The notes under the pieces were generated by a model that did not search any database, was not told the DNA's origin, and worked only from the letters and a program-made list of their open reading frames with translations. Source: a virus. Taken from it: a stretch of DNA of 38,777 nucleotides. The position numbers were made by a program, and so were the translations under genes. Positions 838 to 38,777 of the stretch are shown piece by piece; within the stretch, counting starts at the first letter, position 1, and each line of letters opens with the position of its first letter. The DNA is taken from positions 1 to 38,777 of the IMG/VR virus record IMGVR_UViG_3300023272_000007. One strand, 5' to 3'.

Positions 838-967
838 GTGTTCAATGTATTTTAAATAGTTTTTTATGTCTTACAAAGATAATAATTCTTATTGGTAAAA
901 TCAAATAAAAAACCCTGTCAAGTAACCAACTGAACAGGGCGAAAACTATATTTTCTACATTGAACAC
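838..967 (-). repeat. Long-range inverted repeat enclosing the terminator
   Basis: GTGTTCAATGTA (838-849) is the exact reverse complement of TACATTGAACAC (956-967). Inside it, ATAGTTTT (856-863) pairs exactly with AAAACTAT (942-949). The two stems (12 and 8 bp) are separated by a symmetric 6/6 internal loop and enclose the terminator hairpin. The outer stem shares GGUGU with hairpin 1 of the candidate small RNA, so the two folds exclude each other. Confidence 0.6.
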
Positions 968-978
968 CTTTCGGCGTG
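906..978 (-). ncRNA. Candidate small RNA with three hairpins
   Basis: A promoter at 985-1013 predicts a start near 978. The RNA would fold as hairpin 1 (977-964: ACGCC, GAAA tetraloop, GGUGU with one G-U pair), hairpin 2 (955-941: GAAAA, UAUAG loop, UUUUC) and hairpin 3 (939-913: CCCUGU paired with ACAGGG) followed by six U, a classic intrinsic terminator. No open frame of useful length lies inside. Promoter, compact structured body and terminator are what a phage-encoded small RNA gene would show. The separate terminator-like hairpin upstream at 1027-1077 isolates it from the virion operon. Target and function are unknown. Confidence 0.55.
907..939 (-). terminator. Intrinsic terminator of the candidate small RNA
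   Basis: On the minus strand CCCTGTTCA (939-931) pairs with TGACAGGG (920-913) with one bulged base, around a 10-base loop, followed by six T (912-907). It has the form of a factor-independent terminator. It could also stop read-through from the virion operon. Confidence 0.8.
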
Positions 979-984
979 TATGTA

Positions 985-1013
985 AACTTACTCACTTCAA
1001 ACGTAAATGTCAA
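985..1013 (-). promoter_or_regulatory. Promoter of the candidate small RNA
   Basis: On the minus strand TTGACA (1013-1008), a 17-base spacer and TAAGTT (990-985). It also reads as TTG-N20-TAAGTTTA, close to the Bacteroidota consensus. The spacing matches the promoters at 32284 and 34312. Nothing on this side codes for protein for more than 600 bases, so its product is probably RNA. Confidence 0.55.
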
Positions 1014-17952: not shown

Positions 17953-19110
17953 TTACATATAGGTTATTGTGGGGGCAATGTTCTTGCTGTGAGTATACCC
18001 GGCATAACGTACGGCATCGGGCAAGTGGTCGTTAAACTTAATCGGTTCATCTAAAATTACTCCGTCTTTATTTTTCTTCCAACTGTAAGACTGAAACTCT
18101 TTCTTAAGTTGTACGCTACTCGGATTTAGAAACAGTCTTTGAGTTTTTATAAAGTCTATGCCGTCTTTAACTGACTTATCGGCAGGATAAACATTAAAAC
18201 CCATTCTTTGTATTTCTTCTATCCTCGCAGGTTCAGCACAGTCTGCGTAAATATAGTTATTCTTATTCGGAATTAGTATCTCTAATTTTCTGATTAAATC
18301 ATTGTTGGTTAACCCGCTTTCATACAGCAACTCTGTGATATATACGCATTGGTCTTTAATCGAATACTCCACTAAGGCAGAGGGATTATTGAAACCAAAA
18401 TCCAAACCGTATATTGTTTCATCGAATGTACCGGGGAAAGGCTTGTTATTAATCCAGTGGGTATAAATCTTTTCAAGTGATTTTCCTCTCTGACCTAAAC
18501 CATAAATATTCCAGTAGTTTTCATCTGTGAGCTTTAATCTTTCTATTTCCTCTACCAGTTCTTTTTCAAGAAAGGGGTTATCTAAGTAAGTTGAAATAAA
18601 TAATTCGCAGTCATCACGGGTTAATATGTCATCGTAAATAAAACTGATTTCGTCACTAGGGTTATAATCCAGTATAATCTTTTCTTTCGTTCTGAACGCT
18701 AATTGTAGCCACGCTTCTTTGTTTATCTCATTCGCTTCATTGATAAAAAGTATATGCCTTTTACGACCTCTTATCTTTTGAGATTCATCTATCGAAATAA
18801 ATTCAACTAAGTTCCCATTGAGCGTATACTCGTTGTTAGTCTTGTTATGGCTCTTAACATTGTACAGCTTTACTGATTCCAATATCTCAAAGAAATCCCT
18901 CATTGCAGTTCCGCGTAAGCTCGGCAATGTCTCCCGGCATATAGTCACTATCTTACCTCTGTTTTGGCAAAGATAAATTATAATCCAAATTAAAATATTG
19001 TAGGTTTTCGCTGAACGAGTCCCGCCCTGAAAGACGGATATTCTTTTTGTGGAGTTTTGAAGTTGCTCGAAATGTATTGTAGTTCTAAGCGGGATTCTCG
19101 TTTGTTCCAT
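17953..19110 (-). CDS. Terminase large subunit
   Basis: ATPase and nuclease that packages DNA through the portal. Walker A is GGTRSAKT (29-36), Walker B is ILFINEANE (120-128) with catalytic Glu125. The nuclease domain shows YGLDFGFNNPSAL (Asp237), YADCAEPARIEEI (Asp290) and DHLPDAVRYA (361-370). The pattern fits the terminase_3 group (PBSX/SPP1-like), which often package by headful. That agrees with a circularly permuted genome. The start overlaps the small terminase gene by 26 bases. Confidence 0.93.
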   Translation of the reverse strand: MEQTRIPLRTTIHFEQLQNSTKRISVFQGGTRSAKTYNILIWIIIYLCQNRGKIVTICRETLPSLRGTAMRDFFEILESVKLYNVKSHNKTNNEYTLNGNLVEFISIDESQKIRGRKRHILFINEANEINKEAWLQLAFRTKEKIILDYNPSDEISFIYDDILTRDDCELFISTYLDNPFLEKELVEEIERLKLTDENYWNIYGLGQRGKSLEKIYTHWINNKPFPGTFDETIYGLDFGFNNPSALVEYSIKDQCVYITELLYESGLTNNDLIRKLEILIPNKNNYIYADCAEPARIEEIQRMGFNVYPADKSVKDGIDFIKTQRLFLNPSSVQLKKEFQSYSWKKNKDGVILDEPIKFNDHLPDAVRYAGYTHSKNIAPTITYM

Positions 19111-30953: not shown

Positions 30954-31213
<260 letters not shown>

Positions 31214-31226
<13 letters not shown>

Positions 31227-34753: not shown

Positions 34754-34758
34754 AAAAT

Positions 34759-34808
34759 AAAAAAACTCTCAATGCGTCTCGGCTACCACACCTTAAACAT
34801 TGAGAGTT
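34759..34808 (-). promoter_or_regulatory. Terminator-like hairpin in the HNH gene leader
   Basis: AACTCTCAATG (34808-34798) pairs perfectly with CATTGAGAGTT (34774-34764), 23-base loop, seven U (34765-34759), then ATG at 34753. An intrinsic terminator placed here would block the HNH mRNA unless it is read through. Confidence 0.6.
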
Positions 34809-34820
34809 CTAAAATATAAA

Positions 34821-34849
34821 ATTGTATTGTGGTAGTTTGAGACTTACAA
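34821..34849 (-). promoter_or_regulatory. Possible promoter of the HNH gene
   Basis: TTGTAA (34849-34844), 17 bases, TACAAT (34826-34821). Predicted start near 34814, six bases before the hairpin at 34808. Sits just after the terminator at 34857-34895. Confidence 0.4.
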
Positions 34850-34856
34850 ATATAAT

Positions 34857-34895
34857 AAAAAACCGCACAACTAAAAACTAAAAAAGTTGCACGGC
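34857..34895 (-). terminator. Intrinsic terminator of the lysis and membrane operon
   Basis: GCCGTGCAACT (34895-34885) and AGTTGTGCGGT (34872-34862) form an 11-bp stem on the minus-strand RNA when three U-G pairs are allowed, followed by six U. On the plus strand some of these would be A-C mismatches, so the signal is for minus-strand transcription. Confidence 0.75.
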
Positions 34896-34936
34896 TTTCT
34901 TTTTTAACTAACCCAATCGAGTGAAAAACTTATACA

Positions 34937-34995
34937 AGCCCGATAACCGCTTTGAATTACCGGGGCTATGAATTTACTCTACCAAATGGATAGAG
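34937..34995 (-). other. Two adjacent hairpins before the terminator
   Basis: Hairpin A: CTCTA (34995-34991) with TAGAG (34981-34977) plus two inner C-G pairs. Hairpin B: AGCCCCGGTAA (34967-34957) with TTATCGGGCT (34946-34937), 10 pairs and one bulge. With the terminator they make a structured 3' end of about 140 bases after the last ORF. Confidence 0.45.
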
Positions 34996-35005
34996 AAACA
35001 AAATC

Positions 35006-35098
35006 TTACTTTCTGCCGAACCAACTCATAATAGAGTTAAGTATGTAACAGCAACAGGCTATTGTACCGCTAAGATAAAATGCAGTTTCTAATGACAT
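35006..35098 (-). CDS. Very small membrane protein (30 aa)
   Basis: MSLETAFYLSGTIACCCYIL followed by NSIMSWFGRK is one membrane segment with a basic end, three adjacent cysteines inside it. It starts five bases after the stop of the 18-codon frame. Position at the end of the lysis operon and composition suggest a small lysis or host-membrane peptide. No family known. Confidence 0.45.
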   Translation of the reverse strand: MSLETAFYLSGTIACCCYILNSIMSWFGRK

Positions 35099-35103
35099 AA
35101 TTA

Positions 35104-35160
35104 TTATTTTTTATTTAAGATTGAAATTAATTGCTCTAAGCTCAAATTGTGAAATGACAT
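35104..35160 (-). CDS. Possible 18-residue peptide gene
   Basis: MSFHNLSLEQLISILNKK, ATG at 35160, six bases after the stop of the 90-residue gene and five bases before the next start. It may be a real peptide or only a spacer frame that keeps ribosomes on the message. The regular spacing is the main support. Confidence 0.3.
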   Translation of the reverse strand: MSFHNLSLEQLISILNKK

Positions 35161-35166
35161 ATTATT

Positions 35167-38541: not shown

Positions 38542-38777
38542 TTCCTCCCCCTCAATTGCTCCAACATCAATTTAATTAACTCTAACCATATATCATACTT
38601 TTGCCTCACCTCAAATTCCTTAAACTTAGTTTCATCTTTAGCACCGATAATATTATTCTGAATCGGAGTAAGCCATTCAATAATAACCGCTTTTTTAGTG
38701 GAGTCGGGAATATAATTAATATCAATTGTTTGCCCGTAAGCCGAGATACTGAATGATAATAGGAGTAGGAGTAGGAG
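38538..38777 (-). CDS. Secreted small protein, C-terminal part (continues at 141-1)
   Basis: This is the 3' part of the gene described at 1-141. Bases 38538-38645 are unique and encode GAKDETKFKEFEVRQKYDIW and the last residues ending QLRGRK. The remaining bases repeat the signal-peptide part. The TGA stop (38540-38538) overlaps the ATG of the DUF3307-like gene. As drawn, the frame runs off the right edge with no start, which is what a circular join predicts. Confidence 0.75.
   Translation of the reverse strand, partial: LLLLLLLSFSISAYGQTIDINYIPDSTKKAVIIEWLTPIQNNIIGAKDETKFKEFEVRQKYDIWLELIKLMLEQLRGRK
38646..38777. repeat. Direct terminal repeat, right copy
   Basis: Identical to 1-126 up to 38771, then one extra TAGGAG unit. 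The difference sits in a short tandem repeat within a leucine-coding run, so it may be assembly slippage or real length variation. Confidence 0.9.

Follow-up and report, generated by a model that had tools for sequence, protein, structure and literature searches.

A candidate small RNA between the virion and lysis genes of a phage, with complementarity to the 5' end of a predicted neighbouring transcript

The c4 RNA of phages P1 and P7 adjoins its target just upstream and on the same strand, and the sar RNA of P22 and the OOP RNA of lambda are encoded on the strand opposite their targets and overlap them. The c4 RNA, about 77 nt long, is released by RNase P from a longer transcript and pairs with ant mRNA by short blocks (PMC5320573), the pairing taking place around the ant ribosome-binding site (PMC12197685). 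The sar RNA (68/69 nt) and the OOP RNA (77 nt) serve in developmental control (PMC12197685). In Bacteroides fragilis, promoters follow the consensus TAnnTTTG, and invertible promoters between inverted repeats are common (PMC3090145). RNA control is little described in phages of the Bacteroidota, and neither Bacteroides nor Flavobacterium is mentioned in a review of small RNAs in phages from 2025 (PMC12197685).

The locus described here belongs to the 38.8-kb record of an uncultivated phage (IMGVR_UViG_3300023272_000007; the window is this whole stretch of 38,777 nt) and contains a candidate RNA of about 73 nt, here named RNA1, on the minus strand at 978-905, whose existence we consider plausible as a prediction from one sequence. 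Like c4, RNA1 would be a small hairpin-rich phage RNA with short blocks, in this case of 12 and 8 bp, complementary to a target just downstream on the same strand. Unlike c4, it has a terminator of its own as well as a candidate promoter, and it would pair with the very 5' end of a transcript that has a separate start. By analogy, RNA1 would act most like c4, yet it is not a member of the C4 family, because the Rfam C4 model (three stem-loops with a'/b' loops) found no match in 330-1110 up to an E-value of 10 and because of this terminator. With sar and OOP it shares the short length and an antisense-like character, but it lies on the strand of its target and has only two complementary blocks. 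In the window, no known RNA family reached the gathering threshold (Rfam), and the weak matches at E<=10 were either low-complexity or implausible.

The two ends of the record (1-130 and 38657-38777) repeat about 120 bases, the two copies differing only by a short repeat unit near GTAGGAG. The record is therefore a circle, and one gene spans the join. Nearly all genes are carried by the minus strand, and the GC content is 35%. Genes for portal, protease/capsid, neck, terminase, a DnaB-type helicase, a replisome organiser, HNH and GIY-YIG nucleases, endolysin and a DUF3307 protein were recognised, together with an array of about 41 hexamer copies (GGCTCT/GGCTAT/GGCGAT) at 30956-31204 that encodes a Gly-Ser/Tyr/Asp repeat protein (ORF 30954-31226). 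Pfam and PHROGs scans found no integrase, recombinase or invertase among the phage proteins, and no tRNA or tmRNA was found in the record. A retron or DGR was rejected, given that the same scans found no reverse transcriptase. The genes have A-rich leaders without Shine-Dalgarno sites (SD-like tetramers at 10 of 51 start codons, against 13% at control ATGs), and among named phages the best terminase matches, ranked by coverage and identity, are phages of Parabacteroides, Bacteroides and Phocaeicola. From these leaders and terminase matches, the host is most likely a member of the Bacteroidota.

In the collections searched, the phage is without close relatives. Among the proteins searched, clear relatives in IMG/VR were found for the terminase only (17953-19110), with 34 loci retrieved and relatives of 40-55% identity in many contigs; there no other gene of the phage is recognisable except for one marginal helicase match, and the terminase appears to be mosaic. 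The portal, tail and major capsid proteins had no matches in IMG/VR, the capsid and terminase had none in bacterial genomes, and a 122-aa neighbour protein gave a single short match in an unrelated contig. Through DUF3307 a 125-kb phage was found, which carries this gene along with one related to the 34.4-34.75 kb gene and has nothing matching the small-RNA region. No homologue of this region was found by megablast or blastn in phages or by blastn in plasmids, and neither the 5' hairpin with linker nor the inverted-repeat pair described below had an exact-pattern match in IMG/VR.

The first-pass annotation had placed a small RNA gene in what it called the only long gene-free region. By length this description holds for 347-1097, a stretch of 751 nt between the last tail gene (ending at 1098) and the lysis-side genes, but a gap of about 410 nt at 34754-35166 has a like anatomy. 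On the minus strand of 347-1097 the hexamer TTGACA occurs four times (1013, 921, 660, 532), against 14 on the whole minus strand of the phage, a density about 15 times the phage average. An exact 13-nt direct repeat, TAAGGTATCGCCA, is found at 729-741 and 1099-1111, so that the downstream leader repeats the final codons of the tail-side gene. Immediately 3' of the last tail gene, at 1076-1028 on the minus strand, there is a hairpin with an 11-bp stem and a 27-nt loop (-21.9 kcal/mol, z -3.6), which had been described as a separate terminator-like hairpin at 1027-1077; the hairpin is confirmed, but its U-tract is weak, with the tail TTTAGTTTT, and it is possibly a 3' end or a processing site of the virion operon.

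RNA1 opens with the hairpin ACGCC-GAAA-GGUGU (977-964; -6.2 kcal/mol, z -3.3), the GAAA-tetraloop hairpin of the first-pass annotation, and continues with the linker GUGUUCAAUGUA-GAAAAU-AUAGUUUU (967-942). An A/U hairpin is indeed present at 955-941, but it is weak and adds only about 2 kcal/mol. The intrinsic terminator that follows (940-907; stem 940-912, U-tract 912-907) has the six U that were claimed for it, folds at -14.5 kcal/mol (z -5.2, 0/200 shuffles) and is joint second among the intrinsic-terminator-like sites of the phage. As a whole, RNA1 (74 nt) folds at -22.7 kcal/mol (z -3.7), with none of 200 shuffles as stable. When RNA1 is folded alone, its seed (963-956) stays at least 93% unpaired, and the exposed linker sequence reads UUCAAUGUA. 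We found no credible ORF in RNA1, in line with its description as free of a reading frame; a small coding RNA was rejected, as ORFs of 31-42 codons start with TTG or GTG only and have no credible context. Owing to the terminator, a discrete RNA with its 3' end near 907 is well supported. An independent start near 978 depends on one promoter match, a reasonable candidate by Bacteroidota standards, and without such a start the small RNA would be a plain 3' UTR of the virion operon.

This promoter had been read as TTGACA (1013-1008) and TAAGTT (990-985) separated by 17 nt. Both boxes are where they were placed, but TAAGTT agrees with the sigma-70 consensus at only 3 of 6 positions; a sigma-70 promoter scan did not call the site, which is poor by E. 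coli rules. When read instead as TTG(ACA)-N20-TAAGTTTA (P1, 1013-983, predicted start at about 978-975), it has one mismatch to the Bacteroidota form TTG-N19-21-TAnnTTTG, and P1 is plausible under the Bacteroidota consensus only. A second and perfect -7 box, TACGTTTG (1005-998), lies within the P1 spacer, with no TTG at the right distance. Directly abutting the terminator tail we found another putative promoter, P2 (TTTG-N20-TATCTTTG, 905-874, start at about 869-866), which was absent from the first-pass annotation and matches the Bacteroidota form better than P1 does. Over the 77.5 kb of both strands there are only three TTTG-N19-21-TAnnTTTG sites, P2 among them, and six TTG-N20-TAnnTTT sites, which include P1 and P2, 109 bp apart. 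As the contig is circular, P2 points at the lysis genes. Its transcript would have a leader of about 520 nt (868-347) with no credible ORF; beyond it come the 66-aa gene (346-146), a signal-peptide gene that spans the join of the contig, and the DUF3307 and endolysin genes.

A 26-nt inverted repeat (838-863/942-967), also new with respect to the first-pass annotation, encloses the terminator. It consists of a perfect 12-bp block (967-956/849-838), a 6x6 interior loop and a perfect 8-bp block (949-942/863-856), and its arms are 81% complementary. Read as RNA, one arm is the RNA1 linker and the other corresponds to about nt 5-30 of the predicted P2 transcript (AAAACUAU...UACAUUGAACAC, 863-838), a mostly single-stranded site within the first 30 nt or so of the P2 leader, which folding leaves mostly unpaired. 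The first-pass annotation had suggested target prediction and named no target; when both strands of the phage were scanned with the linker, 863-838 ranked best, the linker's own complement aside. The predicted duplex has an energy of -23.8 kcal/mol, against a phage background with a mean of -8.6 (sd 2.4) and a best unrelated site at -17.2, and this value was reached by 0 of 3000 shuffles of the linker and 0 of 3000 of the target. Cofolding was more favourable than folding the two RNAs apart, by about 15.7 kcal/mol. Milder controls gave smaller margins: among 97 terminators (from the phage and 36 fetched loci) one other had equal flanking-arm energy, 3 of 100 shuffled versions of the AT-rich region reached the ungapped inverted-repeat score, and a scan of the phage for the same geometry returned three other places at -25 or below, one of them a tandem-repeat gene. 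There is no third copy of the repeat site in the phage. The sequence elements, the folding and the complementarity with its excess over controls are observed properties of the locus, and we regard the complementarity as real but not overwhelming. The inverted repeat folds equally strongly on the plus strand (z -6.2), and the repeat therefore does not in itself prove a function at the RNA level.

Our main reading, for which we estimate a probability of roughly 0.37, is that RNA1 is a same-strand antisense RNA directed at the 5' end of the P2 transcript, linking the virion genes to the lysis genes. RNA1 would be produced immediately downstream of the virion genes, and its ends would be shielded by the 5' GAAA hairpin and the terminator, leaving the linker exposed. 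Both promoters, RNA1 itself, its pairing in cells and the direction in which it would regulate are inferred. The linker would pair with the outermost 5' nucleotides of the next same-strand transcript, begun at P2. Pairing would begin at the single-stranded 12-nt block, after which the weak A/U hairpin of RNA1 would open and the 8-bp block would be added, giving an interrupted duplex of about 20 bp. The likely outcome would be an altered stability or elongation of the P2 transcript, through double-strand cleavage or remodelling of its 5' end; as there is no credible ORF near the target in the P2 leader, such an effect is likelier than a block of translation. The output of the lysis operon would thereby be tied to transcription of the virion genes.

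The main and simplest rival, which we hold to be about equally likely, has no separate RNA gene: 940-907 would be the terminator of the virion operon and would insulate P2, P1 would be a chance match, and any small RNA would come from processing at the operon's 3' end. This fits with 940-907 being the first strong intrinsic terminator past the last tail gene and lying directly on P2, with a terminator-then-promoter layout that is seen again at 34900-34847, and with the -10 box of P1 escaping the sigma-70 scan. It has more difficulty with P1, as TTG-N20-TAAGTTTA is rarely combined with a complete TTGACA, and it has to accept as coincidences both the GAAA hairpin right after the predicted start and the complementarity between linker and leader.

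The same complementarity could serve within a single molecule: in one read-through RNA the two arms would pair into a long stem with the terminator hairpin at its tip, and this stem would signal processing or 3' protection at the boundary of the virion and lysis messages. The arms do flank the terminator, and 838-978 folds as a single structure (-36.8 kcal/mol, z -5.1). With a strong terminator and a promoter in the loop, however, a continuous RNA would be a minor product, and the arm beyond the terminator would form in read-through RNA only, so that we regard this explanation as unlikely. Least probable of all is that the repeat is a DNA element, either a pair of protein-binding operators at P2 or the two boundaries of an invertible promoter segment, of the kind behind phase variation in Bacteroides. 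In its favour, the arms flank a TAnnTTTG-type Bacteroidota promoter, as inverted repeats do in the invertible promoters of B. fragilis, and they fold strongly on both strands. Against it, the repeat is imperfect (a 6-nt mismatched block), has an internal terminator and occurs without a third copy, and the Pfam and PHROGs scans found no recombinase or invertase in the phage, which would leave the task to a host enzyme.

A second region of the minus strand, 34900-34759, lies upstream of gene 34753-34403, probably an HNH/NUMOD4 gene. A terminator is directly followed there by a -7 box, TATATTTG, and then by a leader of about 80 nt, which ends in the strongest terminator of the phage, just 5' of the start codon. 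The 5' end of this leader (GUCUC..CUACCACA) is predicted to pair with the terminator loop by 5+8 bp (-19.4 kcal/mol), with 3 of 5000 shuffles as good. In prefix folding, this pairing forms first, as an antiterminator (-17.4), and the terminator last (-21.4), and in this model the region looks like a transcription attenuator.

In conclusion, RNA1 would be ordinary in kind, and the noteworthy part is the pairing proposed with its partner. If RNA1 is real, it would offer a concrete two-block pairing of a late-operon RNA with a lysis leader. More doubtful, and put forward only tentatively, is the broader proposal that late virion transcription sets the timing of lysis in this phage, by a c4-like arrangement that would have been reached independently, in which the small RNA and its target each have their own promoter and terminator.
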